A program made the translations under genes and the position numbers. Of a stretch of DNA of 64,000 nt, positions 4,190 through 33,533 are shown piece by piece. The stretch is taken from positions 806,001-870,000 of the forward strand of contig NC_017585.1 in NCBI RefSeq assembly GCF_000240165.1. Reading direction: 5' to 3'. Below the pieces are notes generated by a model that was given only the letters and a program-made list of their open reading frames with translations, was not told where the DNA came from and did not search any database. Each line of letters starts with the position of its first letter. Within the stretch, counting starts at the first letter, position 1. The DNA is from Streptantibioticus cattleyicolor NRRL 8057 = DSM 46488 (GTDB lineage Bacteria; Actinomycetota; Actinomycetes; Streptomycetales; Streptomycetaceae).

Positions 4190-5066
4190 CCTAAGGGCTG
4201 TCCCGTAACTGCTGGTCACGGGTGAGATGATCTTGCTGTGTCTGGTGTGATCACGGCGTCTGAGCCCTCCTGGATAGCCCCGTTCACTGGGCTGAGCCCG
4301 CGCCAGTTCGGCAAGCTGATCACCGCGCTCCGGCGTGAGGGTGTGGACCCGGTGCGCAAGGGTCGGCCATGGAGCCTGCCGCTGGAGGACCGCGTGCTCC
4401 TGATCGCCGCGTACTGGCGGACGAACCTGACCCTGCGTCAACTGGCCCCGCTGTTCGGGGTGTCCAAGTCGGCGGCCGACCGCATCATCGACCACCTCGG
4501 GCCCGCGCTCGCGCTCCAGCAGCGCAAGCGGTTCCGCAAGGACACCGTGCTCCTCATGGACGGCACCCTCGTTCCCACCCGTGACCACACCATCGCCGAG
4601 CAGTCCAAGAACTACCGGTACTCCACCAACCACCAGGTCGTCATCGACGCCGACACCCGGCTCGTCGTCGCGGTCGGCCGACCAGTCGCAGGCAACCGCA
4701 ACGACTGCAAGGCGTGGGAGCTGTCCGGCGCGAAAGACGCCGTCGGCAAGACCACGGTCATCGCAGATGGCGGCTACCGGGGCACCGGCCTGGTCATCCC
4801 GCACCGCCGCGAGAAGGGCCAGACCGAACTCCCGGAATGGAAGGAGGAGCACAACGCCTCCCACCGCAAAGTCCGCGCCCGTGTAGAGCACGTCTTCGCC
4901 CGGATGAAGGGCTGGAAGATCCTTCGCGACTGCCGGCTGAAGGGCGACGGCGTCCAGCACGCCATGCTCGGCATCGCCCGCCTGCACAACCTCGTCCTTG
5001 CCGGGTGACGCAGAAACCAGCAGGCCACCAGACCCGTCAGAGATCATTTACGGGACAGCCCTTAGG
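4190..5066 (+). mobile_element. IS5-family insertion sequence, complete
   Basis: The element is bounded by perfect 19-bp terminal inverted repeats: CCTAAGGGCTGTCCCGTAA at 4190-4208 and its complement at 5048-5066. It is 877 bp and carries one intact transposase, so it looks recent. Flanking bases (ACC on the left, AAA on the right) give no clear target duplication. A TNA-type duplication inside the CTAAG ends cannot be separated from the repeats. Confidence 0.9.
4238..5008 (+). CDS. IS5-family transposase (DDE_Tnp_4 type)
   Basis: This 256-residue transposase catalyses movement of the surrounding element. A helix-turn-helix region spans about residues 62-86 (RTNLTLRQLAPLFGVSKSAA). The DDE catalytic residues are visible as D108 in LLMDGTLVP, D177 in IADGGYRG and E217 in RARVEHVFARMKGWK, the usual spacing for the family. 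GTG 4238 is the only start that fits between the left terminal repeat and the first conserved residues. Length and motifs are complete, so the enzyme is probably active. Confidence 0.93.
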   Translation: MSGVITASEPSWIAPFTGLSPRQFGKLITALRREGVDPVRKGRPWSLPLEDRVLLIAAYWRTNLTLRQLAPLFGVSKSAADRIIDHLGPALALQQRKRFRKDTVLLMDGTLVPTRDHTIAEQSKNYRYSTNHQVVIDADTRLVVAVGRPVAGNRNDCKAWELSGAKDAVGKTTVIADGGYRGTGLVIPHRREKGQTELPEWKEEHNASHRKVRARVEHVFARMKGWKILRDCRLKGDGVQHAMLGIARLHNLVLAG

Positions 5067-6385: not shown

Positions 6386-6769
6386 ATGCGTATTGGAGAG
6401 CTGGCCAGGCGCTCGGGAGTGAGCGTCCGCGCCCTGCGCTACTACGAGGAGCAGAAGCTTCTGGAGTCGGCCAGGACATCCGGAAACCAGCGGGACTATG
6501 CCGAAGGCGCAGTGAGCCGCGTGCAGCTCATCCAGCAGCTCTACGCCGCCGGCCTGTCGAGCGGAACGATCGTCGATCTCCTGCCCTGCGTGACCACCGG
6601 TCTGGCAACCCAGGAGATGCTCGACCAACTCATCACCGAACGTGATCACATCGTTACGCGTATCGACGAATTGGGGCAGGCCAAGGAGAAGCTCGACCGA
6701 GTGATCGAACAGGTCATCGCGGCTGGCGTCGTCACCGGAGACGCTTCTACGACGGTGGCCGGCGAATGA
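6386..6769 (+). CDS. MerR family transcriptional regulator
   Basis: The protein is 127 residues. It has the MerR winged helix-turn-helix at its N-terminus (MRIGELARRSGVSVRALRYYEEQKLL) and a C-terminal coiled-coil dimerisation helix (about residues 90-115). A single cysteine sits in LLPCVTTG near residue 71, in the usual effector-linked region, and no metal-binding cysteine loop follows. The regulator closely resembles the MerR protein encoded at 35454, with the same LxPCxT motif. It is divergent from the CMD gene across a dyad operator, and control of that gene and itself is inferred from layout. The ligand is unknown. Confidence 0.88.
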   Translation: MRIGELARRSGVSVRALRYYEEQKLLESARTSGNQRDYAEGAVSRVQLIQQLYAAGLSSGTIVDLLPCVTTGLATQEMLDQLITERDHIVTRIDELGQAKEKLDRVIEQVIAAGVVTGDASTTVAGE

Positions 6770-7267
6770 CGCCGCGCCTAAAGTCCTGCCGCCAACAGAA
6801 AAGACAGCGACCTGTCTGCCTGGCCCGCCTTCTTCCCACAACTGCGAGCTGGACTCATAGGCGATGTCCGCCCGGCGGGGGCGAGCGCCAGTGGCGCGGA
6901 ACCAAGGAATCCGCCAGCAATCTGAACAGCGATCCAGTAGGCCCGGCGCCTACCACGCGGCCACCGGTCACCTGATGAGTGGAAGAGCTGCCACCTCACG
7001 CGCGATGGTTGAGCGCATCCACCGACAACGTTGCATTCGGCACGAGCACAGTCCAGCCCGCACTCCACCTCGTTCCCGAGCAGCGTGCCCACACCAGGCG
7101 AACTCGCCGCCCGCACCCGCCCGATCGAGCGGAACGAAGTAAACGCGACCGAGGAGCGGCGATCCCCGCAGCGCCCGCTCCGGCGTCACACCACATCACG
7201 CAGATCAGCACCCGCGACCCAGCACCCGCAACCCCGCACCCGTGGACGCCCATGCGAGGATGACGCC
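6770..7267. other. Intergenic stretch, no supported gene
   Basis: About 500 bp with no convincing gene on either strand. A frame stays open upstream of the next gene but has no start with a ribosome site and no codon bias before 7268. Confidence 0.5.
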
Positions 7268-9642: not shown

Positions 9643-10572
9643 TCAAACGGTGAGCACGACCTTGCCCTGGAGGTGACCGCTGTCGAGCAGGCGGTGCGCG
9701 TCGGCGACGCGCTCGAACGGGAACGTCTCCTGCACGTGGACCCGGAGCCTGCCCTGTTCGACGAGTTGGACGAGGCCGCGCAGGGCGACCGGGTCGGGGT
9801 CGACCCCGATGCCGCTGAAGCGCATGCCGGCCGCCTCGTACCTGGCGGCGAGGTCCGCGTCCTCGTCGGCGACCGCCGTCACCAGGTGACCGCCTGGGCG
9901 GAGCACCTTCAGCGAGCGCTCGACGGTGTCGCCGCCGATCGTGTCGAGCACGACGTCGACGTCCCGGACCGCCTCGGCGAAGTCGACCGCCGTGTAGTCG
10001 ATCACCTCGTCGGCGCCCAACCCCTCGACGAACGTCCGCTTGCTCCCACCGGCTGTCGCGATCACGTACGCGCCGAGCGCCTTCGCGATCTGGATCGCCA
10101 CGTGGCCGACCCCGCCACCACCGCCGTGGATCAGGACGCGGTCGCCCTCGGCCACGCCGCCGAGATCGACGAGGCCCTGCCACGCCGTCAGCCCCACGAT
10201 CGGCAGCGCCGACGCCTCGACGTGCGACAGTGACGCCGGCTTGCGTGCCAGGTGCAACGCCGGTGCCGACACGACCTCGGCGTACGCGCTCGCCGCCCGC
10301 GGGAACAGCGGCATGCCGAACACCTCGTCGCCGGGCCTGAACCGCCAGGTCCCCGATGCGTCCTCGACCACGCCGCTGATGTCCCAGCCGAGGACGAACG
10401 GCGGCCGTCCGAGCAGCGGGAACTCGCCGGCGCGCAGGCGTGCCTCCAGCGGGTTGAGCCCGATCGCCTTGACGCGGACGAGGACCTCGGTCGGGAGGGG
10501 CCGGGGCTGCGGCGCGTCCACGATGGTGAGTACCTCGGGGCCGCCGAGCGTGTGCTGGGTGATGACTCGCAT
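9643..10572 (-). CDS. NADP-dependent zinc-less alcohol dehydrogenase / quinone oxidoreductase
   Basis: The 309-residue enzyme belongs to the quinone-oxidoreductase branch of the MDR superfamily. The N-terminal GroES-like domain includes GLNPLEARLRAG and PFVLGWDISGVV. The nucleotide-binding fold includes VLIHGGGGGVGHVAIQIAK (about residues 145-163) and DVVLDTIGGDT. Zinc-binding cysteines are absent, as expected for this branch. ATG 10572 follows a good AGGAGAG site. It is divergent from an HxlR regulator at 10648, an arrangement typical of redox-stress or quinone-responsive pairs, so control by that regulator is likely. Confidence 0.88.
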   Translation of the reverse strand: MRVITQHTLGGPEVLTIVDAPQPRPLPTEVLVRVKAIGLNPLEARLRAGEFPLLGRPPFVLGWDISGVVEDASGTWRFRPGDEVFGMPLFPRAASAYAEVVSAPALHLARKPASLSHVEASALPIVGLTAWQGLVDLGGVAEGDRVLIHGGGGGVGHVAIQIAKALGAYVIATAGGSKRTFVEGLGADEVIDYTAVDFAEAVRDVDVVLDTIGGDTVERSLKVLRPGGHLVTAVADEDADLAARYEAAGMRFSGIGVDPDPVALRGLVQLVEQGRLRVHVQETFPFERVADAHRLLDSGHLQGKVVLTV

Positions 10573-10647
10573 GACTCTCCTGACGTGGGAGTGGGGAGAG
10601 CACCCAGGCTAGGTTTCCGACAGGAACCGGCAGGTACCTTTGGCGCC

Positions 10648-11028
10648 ATGAGTGGTTTCGGGCCCGGCGACCCCTTTCTCGCCGACTGTCCGGCGCGTCT
10701 GGCGGTCGAGCTGATCGCCGACAAGTGGACGGTGGTCGTGCTCTACGGCCTCAGCAAGGGCCCGGTGCGCCATGGCGAGTTGATCGAGCTGATCGGTGGC
10801 ATCTCCCGCAAGGTGCTCACCCAGACGCTCCGACGGCTCCAGGCGCACGGACTCGTCCGCCGCCACGCCTACGCCGAGGTGCCACCTCGTGTCGAGTACG
10901 AGCTGACCCCGCTCGGGGCGACGCTGATCGAGCCGATCCATATGCTGACCGAGTGGGCGAGGGAGCACGGCGACGCGGTGCTCGACGCGTTGGACGCCGA
11001 TCCCGAGCCGGTCGCCCGTGGCAACTGA
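10648..11028 (+). CDS. HxlR family transcriptional regulator
   Basis: The 126-residue protein is an HxlR winged-helix regulator. It contains CPARLAVELIADKWTVVVLY (about residues 13-32) and the recognition-helix region GGISRKVLTQTLRRLQAHG (about 49-67), followed by the wing YELTPLGATL. The single N-terminal cysteine at about residue 13 is in the position used for thiol sensing in the HypR/QorR-type members. ATG 10648 is well placed. The short intergenic region to the divergent oxidoreductase contains dyads around GGTTTCC/GGAACC and AGGTACCT that could be operators. Quinone or aldehyde sensing is inference from the partner. Confidence 0.88.
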   Translation: MSGFGPGDPFLADCPARLAVELIADKWTVVVLYGLSKGPVRHGELIELIGGISRKVLTQTLRRLQAHGLVRRHAYAEVPPRVEYELTPLGATLIEPIHMLTEWAREHGDAVLDALDADPEPVARGN

Positions 11029-11092
11029 CGCCCCCGCCGAGGCACCCCGGCGATCCCGGCGCGGCGCAAGGTCCCGGACATGACCGAAGCCC

Positions 11093-12415
11093 CTACCGCT
11101 GCCACTGGTACAGCCCGTCCCGTTCGAGGATGCGCACCGCCTGGACGTCCCGTTCGATCTCGGTCTGGTCGTCCGCGACGAGGATGAGCGCGCCGGGGGA
11201 GGTGAGGAGTCCGGGGGTCCGGTGGAGGCGGGAGCCGGGGACGAGGTGGCCGACGGTGCCGGTGATGGTGGGCAGGGAGAGGATCTGCTGGAGGACGGCG
11301 GTGTTGAGGAAGCCGCCGCGGTCGGTGGCGAGGACGATACGGCAGGTGTATTTGGGGGCGCGGGTCGGCCGGTCCATGAGGGAGAGGGGATCGAGGAGGG
11401 CGGCGACGGCGTCGCGGGCGTGGTAGCTGCCGGTGGCCCAGAGCAGGGCGACGGGGTCGATGCCGCTGTCGGGACGGGGCTCGGTGGTGAGCAGCAGGGG
11501 GCCGTCGTCGGTGAGGACGATCTCGGAGTGGGCGGCTCCGTAGGCGATGCCGAGCGCGGTGAGGGCACGTGACACGTGGTCGGTGAGGACGCCGGCGACG
11601 GCGGAGCCGGGCGGCAGCAGATCGGCCCGGCCGCAGAGCATCACCCCGGCGCGCCCCATCCGGTGCTCCGCCCAGATCTCGGTCACCCGGTGATGACCGG
11701 CGTAGCTGACGGTGTTGACCAGGTAACGCGCCCCGGTGACCTCCGCGCGCAGCAGGAGGGGTGTGCCGGCGAGGGCGGGGTGGCCGGGGGCCTCCGGGGT
11801 GTCCTCGGGCGGGGCGAAGGGGGAGCCGCGCATCGCCTGCCAGGCGCGGACGAGGTCGTCGTGGTCGGTGCAGACGCGTTCGCCGGAGTCCCGGGCCGCG
11901 CTGTGCGAGGCGGATCCGAGTGTGTAGGGGCGGCGGCCGTTGCGGGCGGCCCACGCGACGGCTTCCTCCAGGTCGTCGGTGCAGAGTGTGGGGACGACGG
12001 GGACGCCGGCGTCGGCCAGGGTGTCGCGGGCGGCGGCGCGGTCGCGGCGGGCGTCGCCGGTGGGTACGGGGTTGCCGGGCAGGCCGAGGTGATGGGCGAG
12101 GGCGGCGGCGAGGGGGACGCCGAGTTCGCTGCCGGCGACCACGGCCTGGACGTCGCGTTGGCGTAATGCCTCGGCCGTGCGGGCCACGTCACCGTGGTCC
12201 TCGACGACGTGCAGGAAGTCGTCGTGGTGCACCCGGTGCTTGGGCGGGAGGGTGGTGTACGGCGGGGTGACGGCGATGCTCGACCAGCCGCGGCGGCGGA
12301 ACTCGGTGGCGTAGAACCGTCCGGTGCCGAACGGGGCGACGATGGCGGCCACGCCACGACGCGCCCTCAACTCGGGGGGTATGGCGTCGGGTTGGCGTGG
12401 ATCGGGGTGCGACAC
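11093..12415 (-). CDS. ATP-grasp domain enzyme of unknown substrate
   Basis: The 440-residue protein has an ATP-grasp layout. A preATP-grasp Rossmann-like region begins AAIVAPFGTGRFYATEFRRR. The middle segment PGNPVPTGDARRDRAAARD resembles the region before the ATP-binding domain of carboxylate-amine ligases. The acidic metal/ATP site region may include IVLTDDGPLLLTTEPRPDSG, where the usual glutamate/asparagine pair is hard to place. The start is GTG 12415, with GAGGAG eight bases upstream; upstream frame sequence lacks homology. Related proteins include L-amino acid ligases and biotin-carboxylase-like enzymes. It faces away from an SDR gene in a regulator-rich block, so a small-molecule biosynthetic role is plausible but unproven. 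Confidence 0.7.
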   Translation of the reverse strand: MSHPDPRQPDAIPPELRARRGVAAIVAPFGTGRFYATEFRRRGWSSIAVTPPYTTLPPKHRVHHDDFLHVVEDHGDVARTAEALRQRDVQAVVAGSELGVPLAAALAHHLGLPGNPVPTGDARRDRAAARDTLADAGVPVVPTLCTDDLEEAVAWAARNGRRPYTLGSASHSAARDSGERVCTDHDDLVRAWQAMRGSPFAPPEDTPEAPGHPALAGTPLLLRAEVTGARYLVNTVSYAGHHRVTEIWAEHRMGRAGVMLCGRADLLPPGSAVAGVLTDHVSRALTALGIAYGAAHSEIVLTDDGPLLLTTEPRPDSGIDPVALLWATGSYHARDAVAALLDPLSLMDRPTRAPKYTCRIVLATDRGGFLNTAVLQQILSLPTITGTVGHLVPGSRLHRTPGLLTSPGALILVADDQTEIERDVQAVRILERDGLYQWQR

Positions 12416-12973
12416 GGACGGTCTCCTCGAAGCGGTCGGCGCGGCGGCGAGCGGTCGGCGGTACGGGGCGGTGACGGGTGGCGTGGTCACCGGTCCGAGC
12501 GGGGCCCGCACGTCGGCGTACGGGCACCGGGCATGGCGCGCTCCCCCTGAACACCGGCCCCCCGGACACCAGCACCCCCCGAACACCAGCCCCCGAGCCC
12601 CGTCCCCACCGCCTCGGCCGGTACCCGGATCTCTATCGGGTCCGGGCGCGCGGGCGCCACGAAGCGGGGACCGGCGGGTTCATGCAAGGAGGTTTCATGA
12701 AGAACGATTCCACGCCGTCACCATATTGGCGTGTCTGTTCGCGTGGTGCGTCGGAATGGCGAATGACAGCGGTGTGGAACGTGGACGAGTGGTCACTACA
12801 TGGGGTGTGTGTGGTGGCGCTGTGCGGGGCGTGGAGATCAGATATGGGTCGGCGGGAACGACGGTGGGAAGGGATGGTGATCAACCCCTCGCCCGGCGGC
12901 GGTGGTTGGCCGTCCGATCGACGTAAGCAGAGTGCTCCGGAACCTCGGGGCCGTAATCCTCCCGGGAGGACGT
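12416..12973. other. Divergent intergenic region with a strong orphan ribosome site
   Basis: This 558-bp region separates the ATP-grasp and SDR genes. It contains AAGGAGGT at about 12686-12693 followed by ATG 12697, the best Shine-Dalgarno match in the neighbourhood. The frame from that ATG (starting MKNDSTPSPYWRVC) continues past the SDR start without stopping until 13176, has weak codon bias and no recognised domain. GC content is visibly lower than in the flanking genes, as expected for promoter DNA. I do not annotate a gene here. Confidence 0.45.
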
Positions 12974-13753
12974 GTGGACCTTCGTATGGCGGGTCGGACC
13001 GCGGTGGTCACCGGTGCCAGCCGAGGGATCGGGCTGGCCGTGGTGCGTACCCTGATCCGCGAGGGCCTTCGGGTGGTGGGCGCCGCGCGGACGATTTCCC
13101 CGGAACTCGGCGAGACCGGTGCCATTCCGGTCGCGGTCGATCTGACCGTGGCCGAGAACTGTACGTATCTCATTGAGCGGGCGGTGGCGGAACTCGGTGG
13201 GATCGATCTGCTGGTGAACAACGCGGGCGTCGGAGAAGTATTCGCCCGGGCCGGTTTTCTCTCGGCGGACGACGAAACGTGGCAGCGTTCGTGGGCGCTC
13301 AATTTCTTCGCGCCGGTGCGGCTGATCCGGGCGGCGCTGCCGACGTTGCTGGAGCGCCGGGGACGGGTGGTGAACGTGTCCTCCATCGGCGCCCGGTTGG
13401 CCACCGGCCCGGTGGACTACGCCGCGGCGAAGGCGGCGCTCAACACCCTGGGCAAGGCGCTGGCGGAGGAGTTCGGCCCGCGGGGCGTCCGGATCAACAC
13501 CGTCTCGCCCGGGCCCACCCGTACCACCGCCTGGGACGGGCCGTGCAGTTACGGAGCCCAGCAGGCGAAGCTGCACGGCGCGGACGTGCGGGAGTACATC
13601 GCCACGGTGCCGGACGAGAGCGGCATGATCACCGGGCGGCTGATCGAGCCGGAAGAGGTCGCCGCGCTGATCGCGTTCGTCGCCTCCGACGTGGCGAGCA
13701 GCATGCAGGGCACCGACTACGTCATCGACGGCGGGGCCGTCAAGACGGTGTGA
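12974..13753 (+). CDS. Short-chain dehydrogenase/reductase (SDR)
   Basis: The 259-residue enzyme is a classical SDR. It has the cofactor motif TGASRGIG (residues 13-20), the NNAG motif in LLVNNAGVGEV, and the catalytic serine and YxxxK in VNVSSIGARL and DYAAAKAAL. It ends with the family stretch MQGTDYVIDGGA. Reduction or oxidation of an unknown alcohol/ketone with NAD(P)(H) is expected. I prefer GTG 12974, four bases after GGGAGG, over ATG 12986. MmyB-type XRE regulators frequently neighbour SDR genes in actinobacteria, and one (13812) converges on this gene, so co-function with those regulators is likely. Confidence 0.9.
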   Translation: MDLRMAGRTAVVTGASRGIGLAVVRTLIREGLRVVGAARTISPELGETGAIPVAVDLTVAENCTYLIERAVAELGGIDLLVNNAGVGEVFARAGFLSADDETWQRSWALNFFAPVRLIRAALPTLLERRGRVVNVSSIGARLATGPVDYAAAKAALNTLGKALAEEFGPRGVRINTVSPGPTRTTAWDGPCSYGAQQAKLHGADVREYIATVPDESGMITGRLIEPEEVAALIAFVASDVASSMQGTDYVIDGGAVKTV

Positions 13754-13811
13754 CACGCGGGGCGGGCCCGGGGGAGGCCGGACGCTTCCCCGGGCCGGCC
13801 GGACACCCGTC

Positions 13812-14708
13812 TCACCGGGCCGGCTTCCAGTTGAGTAACAGCAGCGTGGCACCGCTGCCGTGGGGGTTGAGGACGTTGATGCGGACCCAGCCGACCTCGC
13901 CGGTGGTGCCGTGGGCGAAGGGGCGCAGGTCGCCGTCGGTGTGGGCGTACAGGGGGAGTTTGCCGCGGTAGAGGGGGCCGATGTCGGGGTCGGCGGCGAG
14001 TTCCTCGTCGAGCTGGGCGAGGGTGGGGTCGTCGGGGTGGCGGACGAACGTGGCACGGGCCACCGACAGGGCGCGGGGTGCCCAGACCTCCCAGAACTGG
14101 GGGAGCCAGGCGTGCACGGCGCCGTTCTCCGGGGCCTTGCGGACCTTCTCGTTCAGCAGCATCCAGCGCAGGAAGTTGAAGTCGTCGGGGATGCCGGCCA
14201 GGAGCGCTTCGGCGTGCGCGTTGTACATCCGGGGCGGCATCAGGTTCCAGCAGTGGTCCTGGATGTAGGCCGGGCCCTGGTAGAGGTCGAGCACGTCGCG
14301 GTAGCCGTCCGGCACGGTGACCGGCTGGTACTGCGGGCGGGGGCGGCAGGCGTAGACGCGCAGGAATTCGTACTGGCGGGCCGTGAGGCCGAGGAGTTCG
14401 GCGATCTGGAGGAGGCGTTCCTCGGGGGCGTTGGAGATCAGGCCGCGTTCGAGTTCGGCGTACCAGGTGCCGTCCCGGAGGCCGAGGAGGCGGCCGACCT
14501 CCAGTTGGGTCAGCCCCTTGGCGCGGCGGCCCCGGCCCGGCAGGTGGCGCGGGACCTCGCTGGGGTACTTGGCCTCGAAGACCGACCGGTCCACGCGTTC
14601 GCGGGCCTGGCCGAGGAAGGCCAGCTTCTCGCGCCGCTCCTCCTGCGTCGGTGTCAGCCTCCGGAGCGCCACCGCGCCCACGGGTCTGCCGCGTCGACCG
14701 TTTCCCAT
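13812..14708 (-). CDS. MmyB-like XRE regulator with a TTA codon
   Basis: The 298-residue protein has an N-terminal helix-turn-helix (KGLTQLEVGRLLGLRDGTWY, about residues 64-83). A long C-terminal PAS-like ligand-binding domain follows (from about DLYQGPAYIQDHCWNLM to the end), as in MmyB-type regulators. The GLTQ...ALGR-type start is preceded by an unusually long basic arm of about 60 residues. ATG 14708 follows GGAGGGG. The codon at 13836-13838, eleven residues before the stop, is TTA, rare in streptomycetes and dependent on the bldA tRNA. The gene converges on the SDR gene. Ligand and targets are unknown. Confidence 0.82.
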   Translation of the reverse strand: MGNGRRGRPVGAVALRRLTPTQEERREKLAFLGQARERVDRSVFEAKYPSEVPRHLPGRGRRAKGLTQLEVGRLLGLRDGTWYAELERGLISNAPEERLLQIAELLGLTARQYEFLRVYACRPRPQYQPVTVPDGYRDVLDLYQGPAYIQDHCWNLMPPRMYNAHAEALLAGIPDDFNFLRWMLLNEKVRKAPENGAVHAWLPQFWEVWAPRALSVARATFVRHPDDPTLAQLDEELAADPDIGPLYRGKLPLYAHTDGDLRPFAHGTTGEVGWVRINVLNPHGSGATLLLLNWKPAR

Positions 14709-15024
14709 GCGCCCACCCCTCCAGCGAGAATCCACGACGTGTGATCGCGTGTTGTGTCAAAAAGTGAACGATGCCTGTTGAATCATGAATAATAGGGAAC
14801 GAAAGTCCCCGGAAAAGCGCCCTCTGTCCCAACTCCCGGGCCCCGGGGCACAATCGGAGCTTCGACCAGCCGACCAGGGTCCGGCGTGCGGCTGGGAAGG
14901 GGGGACGAGCCGTGCGGGTCCGCTGCCGTGAGCAGAGGCGGGCGGCCGACCACACGGTGCCGCGGTCACCGCGTACCGTCCCGCCCATGTCGTGTGGCCG
15001 GCCCCCGAGAAGGCGTACTCGTAC
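14709..15024. other. Divergent promoter region between two XRE genes
   Basis: About 316 bp between divergently read XRE genes. Its first part is AT-richer than the flanks (around 14750-14800), consistent with promoters. I see no gene and no clear symmetrical operator. Confidence 0.45.
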
Positions 15025-16056
15025 ATGACCTCCCGCACCCCGGTCACCCCCGACGACTGTGCCGACGGGCCGCGGCGTCGCGCCGCCGCCCACCCTCAAC
15101 CCGTCGGCGCCGGGCCCCTGTTGCCCCTAACGATCCGGATCAGGTATCCGACTCCCGGAACCGCGAAGACGGTTCCCGCGCACAACACCGCCCCGGACAA
15201 AACCGCCGCAACCGGGACGACCCCGACACCTCCGGTGTGCGTCGGCCCCACCCCCCTCTCCCGCTTCCTGCGCACCCACCGCCGACGCGCCGGGCTCACC
15301 CAGGAGACCCTCGCCCGCCGGCTCGACGTCAGCACCCGCACCGTCAGCAACTGGGAACGCGGCCGGCACGGCGTGGACCCGGACCGCGTGGCGGACCTCG
15401 GCCACGCGCTCGGTCTCACGCCGGACGAACACGACCGATTACGCCTGCTCGTCCCCGCCGCCCCGGACCGCGCCGCCGACCCCGGCCCCGGCCCCGTACG
15501 GCCGGTGCCCCCACCCCACCTCGTCGCCCGCTTCACCGACGAATGGCGCCGCGGCTTCCACGATGTCGCCATGCCCGCCTACCTGCGCGACCCGGCCTGG
15601 CACATCCTCGCCTGCAACCCGGCGTTCACCAGCGCCTTCGCCACCGCCGCCGCCATGCCGCACGCCATGCCCTGGGAGAACTTCGCCCGCTTCGTGTGCC
15701 TCCACCCCGACGCCCCCCGGGTGCTCCACGACTGGTACGACGGGTGGCTCGTGCCCGTCCTCGGCGAGATCGCCGACGGGCTGCGGACCGGAACGGACCA
15801 GGCGGCGCCGCGCCGGCTGCTGGCGGAGCTGACGGGCCGGCCCGCGGTGGCCCGTGCCTGGACACGGGTCGCGGCGGCGGCGCGGCGGGCGGCGCCACCG
15901 CCGCGCAGACCGCTGAGCCACCCCGATCCGCGCGTCGGCAACGTCCTGGTGCACGTCAGCTCCATGGAACCGGAGGGCCTGCACGGCTACCGCAGCGTGT
16001 TCTGGCGGCTGGAGCCCAGGGAGCCGGCGCCGACGCGGCCGGGGTCGCGCGGCTGA
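15025..16056 (+). CDS. MmyB-like XRE regulator with a TTA codon
   Basis: As annotated the protein is 343 residues. The helix-turn-helix is AGLTQETLARRLDVSTRTVS within LSRFLRTHRRR... to WERGRHGVDP. The C-terminal domain has the MmyB ligand-domain features WHILACNPAFTSAFAT, NFARFVCLHPDA, DWYDGWLVP and SHPDPRVGNVLV. The start is uncertain: ATG 15025 has only a distant GAGAAGG, while GTG 15235 would place the HTH eight residues from the N-terminus, as is usual for the family, but has no ribosome site. A TTA leucine codon is in frame at 15439-15441. It ends five bases from a convergent third XRE gene. Confidence 0.78.
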   Translation: MTSRTPVTPDDCADGPRRRAAAHPQPVGAGPLLPLTIRIRYPTPGTAKTVPAHNTAPDKTAATGTTPTPPVCVGPTPLSRFLRTHRRRAGLTQETLARRLDVSTRTVSNWERGRHGVDPDRVADLGHALGLTPDEHDRLRLLVPAAPDRAADPGPGPVRPVPPPHLVARFTDEWRRGFHDVAMPAYLRDPAWHILACNPAFTSAFATAAAMPHAMPWENFARFVCLHPDAPRVLHDWYDGWLVPVLGEIADGLRTGTDQAAPRRLLAELTGRPAVARAWTRVAAAARRAAPPPRRPLSHPDPRVGNVLVHVSSMEPEGLHGYRSVFWRLEPREPAPTRPGSRG

Positions 16057-16061
16057 TCCGG

Positions 16062-16868
16062 TCACGCACCCGGCAGCAGCAACGTGACCGAACGCAGACC
16101 CCGCGCCAGCCCCGGCACCGGGACGGACTCGATGACATGGACACCGACGACGCCGAGGTCGGGGTGGCGGATCCGGCGGGGCCGGCCGTCACCGTGCAGC
16201 AGGTTCTCCGGACGGCCGGGCCAGATGGGCAGGTCGTCGACGAAGGCCCGCTTGGTGATCTCGTCGGCCTCCAGATCGACGGCGATGCGCCGCAGTTCGG
16301 CCGCGTCGGGGTAGCGCAGCAACGCCACCGACAACTGCGCCAGCGCCGGCAGCAGCCAGCGGTCGTACCAGTCCACCAGCATCTCGCGGGCGCCGGGGTG
16401 GAAGGCGACGAACCGCAGCGGGTTGTGCAGCGGGCTGCAACTGGGCTTCGGCGCCGAGGCGATCATGTCGGCCATGAGCAGTTCGTACGCCTCGTTGTAG
16501 AGGACGACGTTCCGCTCGACGTCGGTCAGGCAGGTGGGGTCGCTCTGCCGGTCGATCCAGAGCTTGCAGCCCGCCAGGTGCGGGGCGAGGTCGTGGAGGG
16601 AGGACGAGGCGGGCACCGGCGGGCCGGAGTGGTCGGCGAGCCAGTAGAGCAACGCCTCCTCCTGCGGCCCGAGGTCGAGGCGGCGACGCAGTTCGTCGAT
16701 GCGCTTGCGGTTGGGGACGGTGCTGCCGCGTTCCCAGTTGATGACGGTGTGCTCACTGGCCCGTACCAACGCGGCGAACCGGCGCTGCGGAAGCTTCATC
16801 CGGTGCCGGACGGCGGTGATGAAGGCGCCCCAGCCCTGCGGAGGGCGCCCTTCCACGTCGTCGTCCAC
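16062..16868 (-). CDS. MmyB-like XRE regulator
   Basis: The 268-residue protein carries an N-terminal helix-turn-helix (MKLPQRRFAALVRASEHTVI, then NWERGSTVPNRKR). The MmyB-type ligand domain is visible as NVVLYNEAYELLMADM, NPLRFVAFHPGARE, DWYDRWLLPAL and IRHPDLGVVGVHV. GTG 16868 has a strong GAAGGAG five bases upstream and is my choice. An alternative GTG at 16907 would overlap the stop of the upstream TetR gene as GTGA and add 13 residues. Either way it is co-transcribed with that TetR gene. Unlike its two neighbours of the same family, it has no TTA codon. Confidence 0.82.
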   Translation of the reverse strand: MDDDVEGRPPQGWGAFITAVRHRMKLPQRRFAALVRASEHTVINWERGSTVPNRKRIDELRRRLDLGPQEEALLYWLADHSGPPVPASSSLHDLAPHLAGCKLWIDRQSDPTCLTDVERNVVLYNEAYELLMADMIASAPKPSCSPLHNPLRFVAFHPGAREMLVDWYDRWLLPALAQLSVALLRYPDAAELRRIAVDLEADEITKRAFVDDLPIWPGRPENLLHGDGRPRRIRHPDLGVVGVHVIESVPVPGLARGLRSVTLLLPGA

Positions 16869-16903
16869 GCCGTCTCCTTCGCGGTTGCCCGGTATTGACG
16901 TCG

Positions 16904-17521
16904 TCACTGCGCGATCCTGACCTCGGGGGCGGTGTTGAGACGCGGGAGCAGGGCCGGCACCGCGAGACCGGGGAGCAGGTACCGCCACAGGACGGTGACG
17001 CGTCCCAGCAGATCGGCGCGGTTGTTGATGGCCTGCGAGAGCACCTGGATGCCGGTGAAGGCGCCGACGATCAGCGCGGTGACCTCCTCCGGGTCGACGC
17101 CCGGCAGCAGTTCGCCGTGATGCTCCGCCTCCCGCAGCAGCCGCAGCACCACGGCGTGCGAGCTGACGTAGGGGGAGGCGTCCGGCTTGCGGTACGACGC
17201 CTGCTCCACGGCGAGCCGTACCGCGCCGCGCAGCACCGGATCGTGGCGCAGCCGGTCGCCGAAGGACATGGTGAGGTCGATCGCGGCCTGGAGCCGCAGT
17301 TCCCGCTCGGGCGGGACGAGCGCCTCGTCCTGGGCGGCGACGACGGCGTCCGCGATCGCCTCCTTGGAGGGGAAGTGGAAGTACAGGGCGCCCCTGGTCA
17401 CCCCGCTGCGGTCGATGATCTCGTTGGTGGTGGCCGCGGCGAACCCCATCTCGTCGAAGACCGCCCCGGCCGCCTCGACGATCAGGCGGCGGGTCCTGAG
17501 CGCCCGCTCCTGCTGTGCCAT
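16904..17521 (-). CDS. TetR regulator, gamma-butyrolactone receptor-like
   Basis: The 205-residue protein matches the ArpA/ScbR class. The N-terminal DNA-binding domain is RALRTRRLIVEAAGAVFDEM then GFAAATTNEIIDRSGVTRGALYFHFPSKEAIAD (about residues 6-60). The C-terminal domain contains WRYLLPGL near the end. The ligand-pocket tryptophan cannot be placed with certainty. ATG 17521 starts the conserved MAQQERALRTRR. The gene heads a two-gene unit with the XRE gene at 16868. No AfsA-type butyrolactone synthase is in the window, so it may be an orphan or pseudo-receptor; I cannot distinguish these by eye. Confidence 0.82.
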   Translation of the reverse strand: MAQQERALRTRRLIVEAAGAVFDEMGFAAATTNEIIDRSGVTRGALYFHFPSKEAIADAVVAAQDEALVPPERELRLQAAIDLTMSFGDRLRHDPVLRGAVRLAVEQASYRKPDASPYVSSHAVVLRLLREAEHHGELLPGVDPEEVTALIVGAFTGIQVLSQAINNRADLLGRVTVLWRYLLPGLAVPALLPRLNTAPEVRIAQ

Positions 17522-17744
17522 CTCGTTACCACCCGCAGTTGACACCGACTCGGTCCAGGTCACGGCTGGCCCGGCGGGCTGGGCGCCACTTCGGTGCCAG
17601 TTTCACCGCACCGCCGGGGCGCCTGGTCCGGGGCAGGCAGGTCGCCGCAGGTGACGCAATGAGAATCAGCAAATAGTACAGCCAACGTCACCGTTGGGCG
17701 CCAGGCTCCGGGACCGCCGGAATACCACCGGGCCGCCGAACACG

Positions 17745-17832
17745 GGGCGTTCACGCCACCGGCCACCACCCCCCGCCCCCGGCCCGTCGGACGACGGGAG
17801 CCCGGGGGTGGTGTCCGGTGGCGTGAACGCCC
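17745..17832. repeat. Long inverted repeat, 29-bp arms
   Basis: Arms at 17745-17773 and 17804-17832 match with one mismatch and enclose a 30-base loop that contains its own CCCGTCGG-ACGACGGG hairpin. The outer part reads GGGCGTTCACGCCACCGG. It lies upstream of the TetR gene and downstream of the lytic transglycosylase stop, so it could terminate the latter or be a structured regulatory site. GGGGCGTTCA recurs in the direct repeats at 17931. Confidence 0.75.
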
Positions 17833-17930
17833 GTACCGGAAGGACCCCGCGCCCTGCGTGGTACCGGCGACGCCGTGCCACGCCACCGCCCGCGAGCTGG
17901 TCGCCGACGGCCTCGGCGCCGCCGCGGGGT

Positions 17931-17975
17931 GGGGCGTTCAGCCGTGTCGGCGAGGGGCGTTCAGCCGTGTCGGCG
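17931..17975. repeat. 22-bp direct repeat at a gene end
   Basis: GGGGCGTTCA-GCCGTGTCGGCG occurs at 17931-17952 and again at 17954-17975, one base apart. The second copy contains the stop codon and last codons of the transglycosylase gene, so the 3' end of that gene has been locally duplicated. Confidence 0.8.
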
Positions 17976-18653
17976 CACCACCTGGCCGGCCAGCGACCAG
18001 TACCCGCGCAGGCGGTCCAGGTACGACTGCGCCGCCGGGCCGAGGTGCGCGCCGCGCGCGAACGCCGCCATGTTCCCGGGGCCGGCGTTGTACCCCAGGG
18101 CCAGCAGCTCGTCCCGGGTGTAGGTACCCGACCGCGCGTCCGGCAGATCGCGGGCGAGATCGTGCAGGTACCAGGCCGCGGCCTCGATCGCCAGCGACGG
18201 GTCGTCCGGCAGTTCCTGCCAGCCGCGACCGGCGAAGTCGCGTCCGCGCTTGGTCTCGTCGAACGCCGCCTTGTGCATGTTGGCGATGCCGAACGCCGCG
18301 TCGGGCTTCATCCGCTGCCACGCCCGCTCCCACGCCGGATCGTGCGGCTTGTACGACTCGTTGTACAGGATCGCCATCAGCAGCTGCGGATGGATCCCGG
18401 CCTGGTCGGCGTACTTGACCACCTGCTTGGCGAAGCGCGACGGATCCTGGTTGCCGGCCGCCATGCCGCTGGGCGTGGGGGCCGGGGTGCCCGGGGCCGA
18501 CGCCGACGGGGACGCCGACGCGCCCGTCCGGTCCGCACCCGGCCCGCTTCCGTGGCCGTTCCCGTGGCCGCCCTGCGTCACCGCGCATCCGGCCACGATC
18601 GCCACGCCCGCCACGGCAAGCCACCACCGGGACTTCCGCGTCTGTGCCACCAC
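17961..18653 (-). CDS. Lytic transglycosylase-like (SLT) lipoprotein
   Basis: The protein is about 230 residues. It has a basic N-terminus and a lipobox, VAIVAGC, so it should be exported and lipid-anchored. A Ser/Pro/Gly-rich linker runs from about residue 25 to 65. The C-terminal lysozyme-like domain contains HPQLLMAILYNESY (the glutamate is the expected catalytic residue), DAAFGIANM and LGYNAGPGN, as in SLT/transglycosylase proteins that cut peptidoglycan glycan strands. Two adjacent GTG codons (18653 and 18650) are possible; the second has the better spacing to GGAGG. The gene is followed by direct and inverted repeats. Confidence 0.82.
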   Translation of the reverse strand: MVAQTRKSRWWLAVAGVAIVAGCAVTQGGHGNGHGSGPGADRTGASASPSASAPGTPAPTPSGMAAGNQDPSRFAKQVVKYADQAGIHPQLLMAILYNESYKPHDPAWERAWQRMKPDAAFGIANMHKAAFDETKRGRDFAGRGWQELPDDPSLAIEAAAWYLHDLARDLPDARSGTYTRDELLALGYNAGPGNMAAFARGAHLGPAAQSYLDRLRGYWSLAGQVVRRHG

Positions 18654-18953
18654 GTTCCTCCGCCCGCCTGCCGCCGGCCACGACTCCTTGAAAGATACGG
18701 CGGGGGGCGGGCCGGGGGTGCGGGGCGGTGGTGGATTGTGGCAGAGCCGTCATGGTGCGGGGGCCGACGAGGGGCGGGGGGCCGAGGAGGGGTCGGGGCG
18801 GTCGTGGGGCGGCGGGGGTTCGTGTGCGGCGGCGGGGGGACGTCGGCGGTGGCAGGGGGACGTCGGCGGTGGCGGCAGGCGGGCTCCGCCTGGGGGCGCG
18901 ATTCACCCGTACGTGCGATGCAGAGAAAATCGAACAAGTGATTCAATCTGGAT
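18654..18953. other. G-rich intergenic region with tandem repeat
   Basis: About 300 bp, extremely G-rich on this strand, between divergent genes. The 20-mer GGGGGACGTCGGCGGTGGCA is tandemly duplicated at 18835-18854 and 18855-18874 (last base differs). The AT-richer segment just before 18954 probably holds the promoter of the small gene. No other gene is seen. Confidence 0.5.
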
Positions 18954-19175
18954 GTGAGCACATACGCCTTCCCCGACGACCTGCTGCAAGCCCAGCGTGA
19001 CTGGTACGCCACGTACCGTGCGCTCGCGGCCACCGAACGTCCAGCCGAGACCACCGTCCTGCGCCGTCGGCTCCAACGGCTCTCCGTCCGCATCAGCACC
19101 CATCCCTACTGGGCCGACCTCGGCGGCAGCGCCCCCGCCGCCCGGGTCGCGCTGAAGCAGGCGACATGGGAATGA
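18954..19175 (+). CDS. Small hypothetical protein
   Basis: The 73-residue protein begins VSTYAFPDDLLQAQRDWYAT and is mostly helical and charged, with no membrane helix or signal. Codon third positions are strongly G/C, which supports it being real. Similar short proteins starting with this sequence are, to my knowledge, widespread in streptomycetes without a function. The GTG start at 18954 is the natural beginning. It converges on the hypothetical gene ending at 19217. Confidence 0.65.
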   Translation: MSTYAFPDDLLQAQRDWYATYRALAATERPAETTVLRRRLQRLSVRISTHPYWADLGGSAPAARVALKQATWE

Positions 19176-27109: not shown

Positions 27110-27286
27110 CCGCGCGGCCGGTACGGGCCCGTACGTCCCGGCGACGGCCGCGCGCCCGGACACGTTGCCGACCCGCCACTCCGCCAGGTGAACGCGGCCA
27201 CCCCTGGGTGTGATCGGCGGGTTCGGGCGGCAGCGGCACGGGCAGGGCTGCCGCGACGCACCGCACGAGGCAGGGGAGACCGCTCG

Positions 27287-28315
27287 GTGAGCACACGCGA
27301 TCTGGACGCCGCCGGCCTGACCGAGCCGCATCTGCGCGCCGCGTACGCCGGCGCGGCCCGGTACCTGAGCCGGCGCAACTCGGCCGCGTACCCCGTGACG
27401 CGCTGCCTGCTCCCGCCCGGCAAACGCCCGTACTGGGACGCCATCCTGGCGTTCTCCACCTACGTCGACGACCTGGTCGACGACCCCGGGGCCGCGCCCG
27501 AGTGCCGGGTCGCCCGCTACGAGGGGTACGAGCGCGCGTTCTTCCGGCTGCTGGACGGGGACGACCCGTGGGACGGCGACGGTGACGGGGTGCCCCGGCA
27601 GCGTGACGGTTCCGGGGTTGCGGCGGCCGAGGACGGGCGGCACTTCGCCCGCGCCTTCGCCCATTTCGTGCGGACCTGGGACATCCCGGCCGACTCCGTA
27701 CGGCAGTTCATGGCCACCATCCGCACCGATCTGTGGGTCACCGAGTACCCGACCTTCCGGGACCTGGAGCGCTACATCCACGGGGTGTGCGCGCAGGGGT
27801 CGCTGTGGGGGAACGCGTTGCTGGAGCCGCGCGGGGAGGAGGCGGCGGGGAAGTCGGCGGCCGTGAGCTTCGGGTTGCAGCTCACCGACTACCTGCGTGA
27901 CCTGCACGAAGACCTGACGGTGGGCCGGTTGTACGTGCCGTTGGAGGACCTGGAGCGGTTCGGGCTGGAACGCGGGGAGCTCCAGGCGGCGGCGGAGGAA
28001 CGGCGGATGACGGAGCCGTTGCGGGACCTCGTACGGTTCCAGGTGGAGCGGGCCCGGGCGTTCTTCGACGACGCGGCCGACTGGTGGCGGCTGGTGGACC
28101 CGGCGTCGTGCGAACTGCCGCGGCAGTACGTGCGGTTGGGCCGCAACTCGCTGGAGCAGATCGCCCGCGCCGACCACGACATCTTCCGGGGCCGCCCGCC
28201 GCACCACCTGGCCAACACGGTGTGGGCGGCGGGCGGGCTGTACTGGGGGTATCTGCGCACCACCGGGCGGCGGTGCGCGCGCCGGGTCACCGGGTGTAGC
28301 TCGGGCGGTTGTTGA
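27287..28315 (+). CDS. Squalene/phytoene synthase family protein
   Basis: The 342-residue protein has the all-helical prenyl-synthase fold. The first aspartate-rich motif is in FSTYVDDLVDDPG (about residues 58-70) and the second is TDYLRDLHED (about 200-209), the DxxxD pair that binds the diphosphates through magnesium. Motif YLSRRNSAAYPVTRCLLPPG matches the N-terminus of the family. Head-to-head condensation of two prenyl diphosphates is expected; squalene versus phytoene cannot be decided. The start is GTG 27287, with GGGGAG upstream. The 3' end overlaps the convergent monooxygenase gene by 29 bp. No other terpene gene is in sight. Confidence 0.85.
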   Translation: MSTRDLDAAGLTEPHLRAAYAGAARYLSRRNSAAYPVTRCLLPPGKRPYWDAILAFSTYVDDLVDDPGAAPECRVARYEGYERAFFRLLDGDDPWDGDGDGVPRQRDGSGVAAAEDGRHFARAFAHFVRTWDIPADSVRQFMATIRTDLWVTEYPTFRDLERYIHGVCAQGSLWGNALLEPRGEEAAGKSAAVSFGLQLTDYLRDLHEDLTVGRLYVPLEDLERFGLERGELQAAAEERRMTEPLRDLVRFQVERARAFFDDAADWWRLVDPASCELPRQYVRLGRNSLEQIARADHDIFRGRPPHHLANTVWAAGGLYWGYLRTTGRRCARRVTGCSSGGC

Positions 28316-31745: not shown

Positions 31746-33533
31746 GTGAACGCTCATTCTCCACGCCCTCTCGGGCGCCGCGGATTCATAGGCGCCACCG
31801 CCGCCCTGGCCGCCGGAGCCGCCACCGGCACCGGCCTCGCCACCGGTCCCGACCTGGCCTGGGCCGCCCGTACCGCCGAGCGCGCCGGGGACCTCGGCGT
31901 CGACCTCGCCCGCAAACTCCTGCTGGTCGGCGCCGGCGGGGAGGACCTCAAACTCCGCTACCTCGACACCCTCATCGACCACGGCCTGCCGAAAACCACC
32001 AAGCCCAAGAAGGTGCTCGTGGTCGGCGCCGGAATCGCCGGGCTCACCGCGGCCATGCTGCTGCGCGACGCCGGACACCACGTCGTCGTCCTGGAGGCCA
32101 ACGCCAACCGCACCGGGGGACGCATCAAGACCTTCCGGGGCGTCTTCTCCGACCGGGCGCTGCACGCCGAGGCCGGCGCCATGCGACTGCCCGACTTCCA
32201 CCCGCTGGTATTGGCGCTCGCCGACAAACTCGGCATCCGCCGACGGCTGTTCTACAACGCGGACGTGGCACCCGGTGCCCTGGGCACCGGCCGGACGCCG
32301 CCGGTCGTCTACCACTCGTTCACCGGCCGCACCTGGACCAACGGCGCACCCACCGACTTCCAGGCGCCCACGGCCACCGGGCGCACCCTCATCCAGGTCA
32401 ACGGGGTACGGGTGACCCGGGGCGGGTACGCCGCGGCGCCCGGCGCCGTCAACCGTTCCTTCGGCGCCGCCGTGGACACCACCATGTCGGCGGCGGTGGA
32501 CCAGGCCCTGGCCCCGGTGACCGTCCCGTCGACCTGGCCGATCGAGAAGCAGATCGCCGCCTGGGCCAAGGTGATCCACGACTTCGACGACTACTCCACG
32601 CACCGCTACCTCGTCGAGCACGCCGGCTGGGACCTGGCCCGGGTGCAGGCGGCCGGCACCCTGGAGAACCTCACCTCCCGGCTGCACTACTCCCTCATCC
32701 CCGCCCTGATGGACCGAGCCATCATCAACCCCGGCTCCCGCTACTGGGAACTGGCCGACGGCACGGCCGCCCTCACCGACGCCCTGACCGCCCGGCTGCG
32801 CGGCGCCATCCGCTACGACCGCCGGATGACCAGGCTGGTGCAGACGGCCGGCGGGGTACGGATCGAGACCACCGCGGAGTCCGGCGGCGAGGAATCCTGC
32901 GACGGCGCGCCCATCCCGCCCACCGAGACCTTCGAGGCCGACTACGCCATCGTCACGGCGCCCTTCTCGGCCGTCCGCTTCTGCCAGTTCGAGCCGGCGC
33001 TCTCCTACCCGAAGCGGCGCGCCGTCACCGAACTGCACTACGACAGCGCGACCAAGGTGCTGCTGGAGTTCAAGCGCCGCTTCTGGGAGCGCGGGGCGGG
33101 CGGTTTCACCGGGGGCGGCTGCGTCTCCGACAGCCCCAACCGCTTCACGTACTTCCCCTCCGCCGTGGAGGGTTCCCCGGGCGGTGTCGTCTTGGCCTCC
33201 TACACCTGGTCGGACGACGCGATGCGCTGGGACTCCCTCACCCCGGGGGAACGGTACGCGTTCGCGCTCGACAACCTCGAGCGGATGTTCGGCCGCGTGG
33301 TGCGGGACGAGTTCACCGGTCACGGCGCCACCCAGTCGTGGACCAGGGCCCGTTACGCGCTCGGCGAGGCGGTGATCTTCACCCCGGGACAGCTCCACGA
33401 ACACCACCCGGCCACCCGGACCGTGGAGGGCCGGGTGCACTTCGCCGGCGAACACACCAGCCTCAAACCCGCCTGGATCGAGGGCGCGTTGGAGAGCGCG
33501 GTCCGCGTCGGCCTCGAAGTGCACGGGCGCTGA
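31746..33533 (+). CDS. Tat-exported flavin amine oxidase / L-amino acid oxidase-like
   Basis: The 595-residue enzyme has a twin-arginine signal ([20 protein letters not shown], about residues 9-28), so it is exported already folded. The FAD motif [17 protein letters not shown] (about 89-105) is followed by [20 protein letters not shown], typical of monoamine/L-amino acid oxidases. The C-terminus carries [20 protein letters not shown], the second flavin-contact region. Such enzymes deaminate L-amino acids and release hydrogen peroxide and ammonia. The start is GTG 31746. A proline-rich membrane protein gene starts nine bases after its stop, so they may be co-transcribed. Confidence 0.9.

Follow-up and report, generated by a model that had tools for sequence, protein, structure and literature searches.

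Within the 64,000-nucleotide stretch of Streptantibioticus cattleyicolor NRRL 8057 DNA analysed here (the window), six genes span positions 11093-17521, from the end of an ATP-grasp ligase gene at 11093 to the start of a ScbR-type TetR receptor gene at 17521. Between these two lie a gene for a short-chain dehydrogenase/reductase (SDR) and three XRE-family regulator genes whose products carry MmyB-type ligand domains, here called XRE1, XRE2 and XRE3. A first-pass annotation had reported this clustering, and all six genes were recovered, with the PF17765 and ScbR models scoring over their cut-offs. Gene starts were adjusted by eye, using upstream sequence and a second copy of part of the locus. 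Over positions 12640-17540 (4,901 bases) the sequence shows 100% identity to pSCAT (NC_016113.1), the linear megaplasmid of the same strain. The species was formerly placed in Streptomyces. Among the 186 plasmid records with a match, one covered 80% of the cassette, and that was the strain's own plasmid.

Four of the six genes, SDR (+), XRE1 (-), XRE2 (+) and TetR (-), are found again on this plasmid at a distance of 91 kb, with order and orientation unchanged (plasmid contig C1, about 909.9-913.4 kb, in stretch L009; hereafter copy 2), which places the arrangement beyond chance. Neither copy has an interrupted reading frame, and protein identity between the copies is 73% for the SDR, 68% for XRE1, 55% for XRE2 (265 residues) and 76% for the TetR. 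At the DNA level the copies are similar from the beginning of the SDR gene to that of the TetR gene (12959-17525), in three pieces with breaks at the XRE1/XRE2 promoter region and at XRE3. The rest of the window is not collinear in gene order with the 18-kb copy-2 stretch, and the further protein matches between the two (E 1e-4) were a dehydrogenase pair of 29% identity and partial TetR/XRE cross-matches. The ATP-grasp gene had no match among the genes of that stretch and thus falls outside the conserved unit. XRE3, which is 31% identical to XRE2, has no counterpart in copy 2 either. One part of it (16341-16415) aligns in reverse orientation, at 77.6%, with the copy-2 gene of XRE2 type, so an origin by inverted duplication is probable. 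XRE3 and the TetR may be translationally coupled, since the GTG inferred as the XRE3 start shares the bases GTGA (16904-16907) with the end of the TetR gene. Judged from the two sequences, the conserved core is SDR, XRE1, XRE2 and TetR, a smaller unit than first proposed, and XRE3 is a local addition in the window copy.

Table 1. Genes and intergenic elements of the cassette region, in window coordinates.
Feature	Position	Strand	Details
ATP-grasp ligase gene	11093..12415	-	440 aa; GTG start, GAGGAG upstream; divergent from SDR
23-bp palindrome TTCATGCAAGGAGGTTTCATGAA	12679..12701		candidate operator in the promoter of the SDR (perhaps also of the ATP-grasp gene)
Weak ARE-like site beside the palindrome	12716..12741	-	window copy only; position weight matrix score 11.7
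SDR oxidoreductase	12974..13753	+	259 aa; adh_short_C2 160.7 bits; conserved cassette member
XRE1, MmyB/MltR-type regulator	13812..14708	-	298 aa; PF17765 39.4 bits; conserved cassette member
Conserved block in XRE1/XRE2 divergent promoter region (TGAATAATAGGGAWCG...CACAATCGG)	14786..14860		about 75 bp
XRE2, MmyB-type regulator	15025..16056	+	343 aa, start inferred; HTH_31 60 bits, PF17765 38.5 bits; conserved cassette member
XRE3, extra MmyB-type regulator	16062..16907	-	PF17765 34.6 bits; GTG start inferred; convergent with XRE2
ScbR-type TetR autoregulator receptor	16904..17521	-	205 aa; NF041196 209.5 bits; conserved cassette member

When the sequences preceding the two SDR genes were aligned locally, the top-scoring match was one near-perfect palindrome of 23 bp, matching at 22 of 23 positions (score 41; shuffles reached at most 32). 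At two or fewer mismatches it occurs at two sites in the 8.1-Mb genome, both upstream of the cassette SDRs; the reversed pattern gave no site genome-wide, and none was found in 100 window shuffles. The orientation of the palindrome relative to the SDR is opposite in the two copies, which makes a shared start signal or ribosome-binding site unlikely; this reading had been considered because the window element holds AAGGAGG followed by ATG. The XRE1/XRE2 divergent promoter region holds a second conserved block (local score 43, shuffle maximum 36, reached in 0 of 200 shuffles). With the collinear second copy and the copy-specific palindrome, this block argues that the genes form a real unit. The first-pass proposal of one unit thus holds for the core, but not for the ATP-grasp gene or for XRE3.

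We also scanned for autoregulatory elements (AREs) with a position weight matrix built from eight sites picked by eye in the promoters of AfsA-linked receptors, which themselves score 29-47. No strong site, and hence no canonical ARE, was found in the cassette. The highest score in the 8.5 kb scanned (10500-19000) was that of the site at 12716. It is one of four with a score of at least 9.5 when 333,338 places, counted over both strands, are considered; it was not seen in copy 2, and a place outside the cassette, at window position 6797, outscores it (12.9). None of the five best matches in 10500-19000 falls in the XRE1/XRE2 promoter region.

With 209.5 bits, the TetR scores above the cut-off (150 bits) of the curated NCBIfam ScbR model NF041196. 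Eight proteins in the genome do so, the two cassette receptors among them, with one such member per copy. Its nearest solved structures are AvaR1 (6wp7, the best at E 3.8e-48) and another gamma-butyrolactone receptor, and drug-binding TetRs stand far behind the autoregulator receptors among its PDB matches. When 21 receptors were aligned to AvaR1 (a badly aligned 22nd row, L115b, was set aside), both cassette receptors kept AvaR1 positions Gln64, Val158, Phe161 and Thr162, the first of which is present in 20 of the 21. The recognition-helix segment TRGALYFHF occurs in both copies and is identical in 6 of 11 AfsA-linked relatives and one residue off in the other five. The neighbourhoods of TetR relatives comprised 20 loci, three of them from the strain itself and 17 from other genomes at the top of the match list. 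An AfsA gene lay within the fetched stretch at 10 of the 17, and a cassette-type SDR adjoined the receptor at two of them (55% and 62% identity, in two other genera); no match to XRE1, XRE2 or XRE3 (E 1e-6) was found in any of the 20. A receptor gene in genome G015 (locus L115, about 6600-7230 (-) on contig C11) joins a clearly different helix-turn-helix (HTH) domain to a ScbR-type ligand domain that shares 73% identity with its counterpart in the window receptor. It adjoins the best SDR relative, and a domain swap of the signal receptor is possible there. A peptide-pattern scan with the TetR ligand domain returned one locus, in Streptomyces sp. ICBB 8177, which corresponds to G015.

The three XRE proteins exceed the 26.3-bit cut-off of the MmyB ligand domain model (MLTR_LBD, PF17765), and they are weak members of that family. 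Among 31 PF17765 matches in the genome, some of them two matches to one protein, the five lowest (34-43 bits) are XRE1-3 and the two copy-2 paralogues; 22 others score 101-228 bits and four score 47-90. HTH_31 (cut-off 27) recognised XRE2, and XRE1 (24.6 bits) and XRE3 (19.7) fell below. The predicted structure of XRE1 (mean predicted local distance difference test, pLDDT, 86.1) had MltR (3pxp) as its best fold match, with Z 11.9 over 233 residues spanning 24-298, ahead of the next at Z 8.2. The root-mean-square deviation of 13.4 over both domains indicates that domain placement differs between the XRE1 model and MltR. Residues 22-117 of the model also matched the HTH protein 1y7y with a middling score (Z 7.4), and the XRE2 model was poor (pLDDT 58.1). 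MltR is an MmyB relative with a crystal structure containing myristic acid, according to the available part of PMC3406030. In an alignment of 19 XRE1 relatives, N163, N178, R190 and W209 of the ligand domain are invariant, and an extra loop of eight or nine residues, with other insertions, sets the XRE1 proteins of the two copies apart from the rest of the alignment.

The available part of PMC3406030 places an MmyB-type regulator divergent from its putative target in 15 of 16 Streptomyces coelicolor cases, the target often being an SDR gene or a medium-chain dehydrogenase/reductase (MDR) gene. The first-pass annotation had invoked this neighbourhood, and an SDR does adjoin XRE1, but the pair is convergent and the usual divergent layout is absent; XRE1 is divergent from XRE2 instead. 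Divergence from the target is a common habit of MmyB-type regulators rather than a strict criterion.

By family the SDR is ordinary, with the motifs TGASRGIG and YAAAK kept. Relatives at E 1e-70 or better occur in 81 of 393 other family genomes, and its top match outside the strain's own genome is the 62% identical protein of G015, which a receptor adjoins. The ATP-grasp protein matched no housekeeping family over its cut-off. It scored 221 bits against NCBIfam PRK07206 (NF005543), below the cut-off of 302, and 90.5 bits against the model for dapdiamide A synthase DdaF, and it matched an L-amino acid ligase in the PDB (30vh, E 9.2e-30, query residues 17-433 of 440). By resemblance it would be of the PRK07206/L-amino-acid-ligase type. 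Such proteins are rare, with relatives at E 1e-50 in 2 of 248 other family genomes (35-40% identity).

The samples of family and class genomes searched were partial, and absence of the cassette elsewhere is accordingly not proven. XRE1 matched 19 other genomes among 297 of the family (E 1e-20, 32-39% identity). No TetR match lay in the 19 neighbourhoods, and some SDR was present in eight of them, at 42% identity or less. In 256 class genomes (E 1e-25) the XRE1 pair was found in the strain's own genome alone. The XRE2 pair had matches in 17 other genomes among 394 of the family (E 1e-30), the best at 122 bits compared with 543 and 550 for its own copies. Contig scans across 84,980 species, which used two short peptide patterns per protein and may leave out the strain's own record, gave no locus for XRE1. 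Two plasmid loci with ScbR-type genes have a ScbA/BarX gene nearby and no MmyB-type gene in their annotation. Among the matches listed in open-access full texts, we found no literature on this cassette.

AfsA-family matches occur at several places in the genome, plasmid and chromosome both included. The plasmid match closest to the cassette (C1:783501) is about 35 kb away; at C1:782751-784475 (L106), about 22 kb to the left of the window, AfsA-family and ScbR-type TetR matches adjoin. Two chromosomal matches (C2:816-1669 and C2:6229854-6230708) share an identical best score of 86.5 bits, one near one end of the chromosome contig and the other about 52 kb from the other end, possibly a repeated terminal region. 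Pfam searches of 19 neighbouring and cassette proteins, made with no dedicated cluster-finding program, recognised no pathway beside the cassette, a squalene/phytoene-synthase gene apart. That gene (27188-28315, +) and one of amine-oxidase type (31746-33533, +) lie 10-14 kb to the right and are possibly part of a small terpenoid set.

Between the left flank and the cassette, an HxlR-like regulator gene judged by eye (10648-11028, +) is divergent from a quinone-reductase-type MDR gene (9643-10572, -), apparently a separate unit. An insertion-sequence transposase-like gene of DDE type, also judged by eye, lies at 4238-5008 (+). A long terminator-like inverted repeat (17747-17830, arms 17747-17762 and 17815-17830) separates the TetR gene from a transglycosylase gene. 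Near copy 2, about 3.6 kb from its SDR, is a crotonase gene (L009 3438-4322, -; C1 about 905.4-906.3 kb); its product aligns over the full length with PDB entry 5o34, 'Enoyl-CoA hydratase carB homologue' (643 bits, 294 residues), and is apparently the same protein. A search for a CarA-type locus with PF09147 was uninformative, as the model matched nowhere, controls included.

We propose, with a probability of about 0.5, that this is a signal-receptor cassette carried in duplicate on the plasmid, with an SDR under the control of a lactone-type receptor and of MmyB-type sensors. The proposal builds on features read directly from the DNA, namely the gene set, its duplication, the palindrome with its specificity for the two copies, the family assignments and the GTGA overlap; from these we infer repression, the ligand classes, the SDR substrate and the palindrome-binding protein. 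Free of ligand, the ScbR-type TetR would most likely act as a repressor, and a lactone- or furan-like signal would release it; such a signal could come from elsewhere in the cell, where AfsA-family synthases are encoded on plasmid and chromosome, or from neighbours. XRE1 and XRE2, which share one divergent promoter region, would be PAS-type sensors of a second ligand, probably acyl or lipid-like, and TetR and XREs would jointly act on the SDR by way of the 23-bp palindrome. A signal or its precursor is probably what the SDR reduces or oxidises, which would close a feedback loop. In the window copy XRE3 would have been added to the TetR operon, and the ATP-grasp gene, which has come to use the promoter region of the SDR, may have been recruited as an output. 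The first-pass annotation had read the cluster as a small-molecule or specialised-metabolite switch; since the TetR is of autoregulator-receptor type, a small-molecule switch is the best reading, but with no pathway recognised the metabolite part stays conjectural.

Several observations weigh against this proposal. The two palindromes score 0.6 and 1.7 on the ARE matrix, far from the 29-47 of the matrix sites, values attained by 25 and 18 of the 333,338 places (both strands, palindromes included). The palindrome may be a remote ARE variant, as these ranks hint weakly, or the protein that binds it may be one of the XREs. For the DNA ahead of the two TetR genes the alignment was no better than chance, its score being attained in 16 of 200 shuffles, and conservation of autoregulation was therefore not seen. 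Both cassette receptors have Ser in place of Trp127, a residue described as nearly universal in such receptors in the available part of PMC7347384, but none of the 21 aligned relatives has Trp there, the 11 AfsA-linked ones included. Both also have Ala at AvaR1 position 108, a Thr for which a role in coupling ligand binding to DNA release has been proposed. PF03756 found no AfsA-type synthase at either copy, and the closest TetR relative in the strain's own genome (C2:1931713, 72%) sits in a 14-kb stretch without an AfsA match. SDR loci, which were returned for 29 of the 81 other genomes with a match, mostly lack a receptor, one lying within the 1.5-kb flanks at 2 of the 29. The synteny across genomes that the first-pass annotation had suggested checking was not seen, as the full cassette was in no other genome examined in these partial samples, but it is present twice on its own plasmid.

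A methylenomycin-type furan or butenolide circuit whose synthase has been lost or outsourced, with an MmfR-like TetR directly repressing an MmyB-type activator of a metabolite pathway elsewhere on the plasmid, is possible but improbable. Precedent exists in the pairing of ArpA-like TetR repressors with MmyB in a plasmid-borne cluster (PMC3406030 and PMC6335953, available parts) and in scleric acid, where an ArpA-like circuit accompanies an ATP-grasp-containing cluster (PMC6335953 and PMC13307308, available parts). The AfsA-type genes elsewhere in this genome also speak for it. Such a circuit sits poorly with the lack of an AfsA-type gene in either copy, with an XRE1/XRE2 promoter region that holds none of the five best ARE-matrix matches, and with scanned neighbours among which no pathway was recognised, though the terpenoid-type and amine-oxidase genes lie nearby.

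We consider it similarly unlikely that the cassette is a local detoxification or catabolic unit, in which a xenobiotic or metabolite, sensed by the regulators, leads to induction of the SDR without hormone signalling, the ScbR and MmyB folds being merely ligand sensors. Adjacency to SDR or MDR genes is common for those of the 16 S. coelicolor MmyB-type regulators that are not beside an antibiotic-related gene (PMC3406030, available part), SDR relatives are spread over 81 of 393 other family genomes, and neither a synthase nor a recognised pathway adjoins. Yet the TetR subfamily is often near AfsA genes and its best PDB matches are autoregulator receptors, and four regulators for a single SDR would be excessive. 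Quite doubtful is a self-contained two-receptor module of a sort so far undescribed, in which the lactone-type TetR and the PAS-type MmyB sensors read one signal in two states, as substrate and as product of the SDR, and act as a bistable decoder of hormones from elsewhere, with the two copies decoding different signals. A decaying or neutral duplicate, with regulators accumulating on a large plasmid without joint function, would fit the confinement so far to one strain, the distance of the XREs from typical MmyB proteins and the divergence of XRE2 between copies (55%, the greatest), but is very unlikely given open frames in both copies, gene order kept at 55-76% protein identity and two intergenic elements retained.

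If the signal-receptor reading is right, the duplicated cassette on the megaplasmid would be a concrete lever to switch on silent pathways, with the palindrome as a ready probe. Thienamycin is the parent compound of imipenem. S. cattleyicolor, as Streptomyces cattleya, is the thienamycin producer named in the available part of PMC8115136. Should MmyB-type proteins and a ScbR-type receptor prove to read related ligands here, this would test the speculation, made in the available part of PMC3406030, that some MmyB proteins recognise A-factor-like molecules.

All the parts belong to known families, and the pairing of an ArpA-type TetR with MmyB on a plasmid has its precedent in the methylenomycin cassette (mmfLHP, mmfR, mmyR and mmyB on SCP1 of S. 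coelicolor), where MmyB is the activator (PMC3406030, available part) and MmfR, MmyR and MmfLHP form a plasmid-borne circuit with ArpA-like TetR repressors (PMC6335953, available part). The cassette described here resembles it in joining a ScbR/ArpA-type TetR to MmyB-type XRE proteins on a large plasmid. It differs in that methylenomycin has the AfsA-type mmfL with both mmfR and mmyR, whereas each copy here has one ScbR-type TetR and no AfsA/MmfL-type synthase, several MmyB-type proteins, and the SDR as conserved enzyme. With the AvaR1, ScbR and ArpA receptors the TetR shares whole-length homology, a ScbR model score over the cut-off and several pocket positions, but it has Ser for Trp127, no adjoining AfsA gene and no clear ARE in its own promoter region. 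The XREs share with the MltR/MmyB family (3pxp) the ligand domain, PAS-like by the fold match of XRE1, a neighbouring SDR and probably an HTH, which HTH_31 recognised in XRE2; they differ in being the lowest-scoring members in the genome, in the convergence of XRE1 with the SDR and in the insertions peculiar to the XRE1 pair. The scleric acid cluster (SclM1, SclM4, SclG) is similar by gene content, with ArpA-like regulators and an ATP-grasp ligase gene (PMC6335953 and PMC13307308, available parts), but it has MmfLHP homologues and a pathway containing a non-ribosomal peptide synthetase, whereas the present cassette has no recognised pathway beside it and carries the ATP-grasp gene in just one of its copies. 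Within the searches made, the new features are an arrangement of four genes that lacks a synthase, the presence of two diverged copies of it on one plasmid, and a palindrome specific to the cassette.

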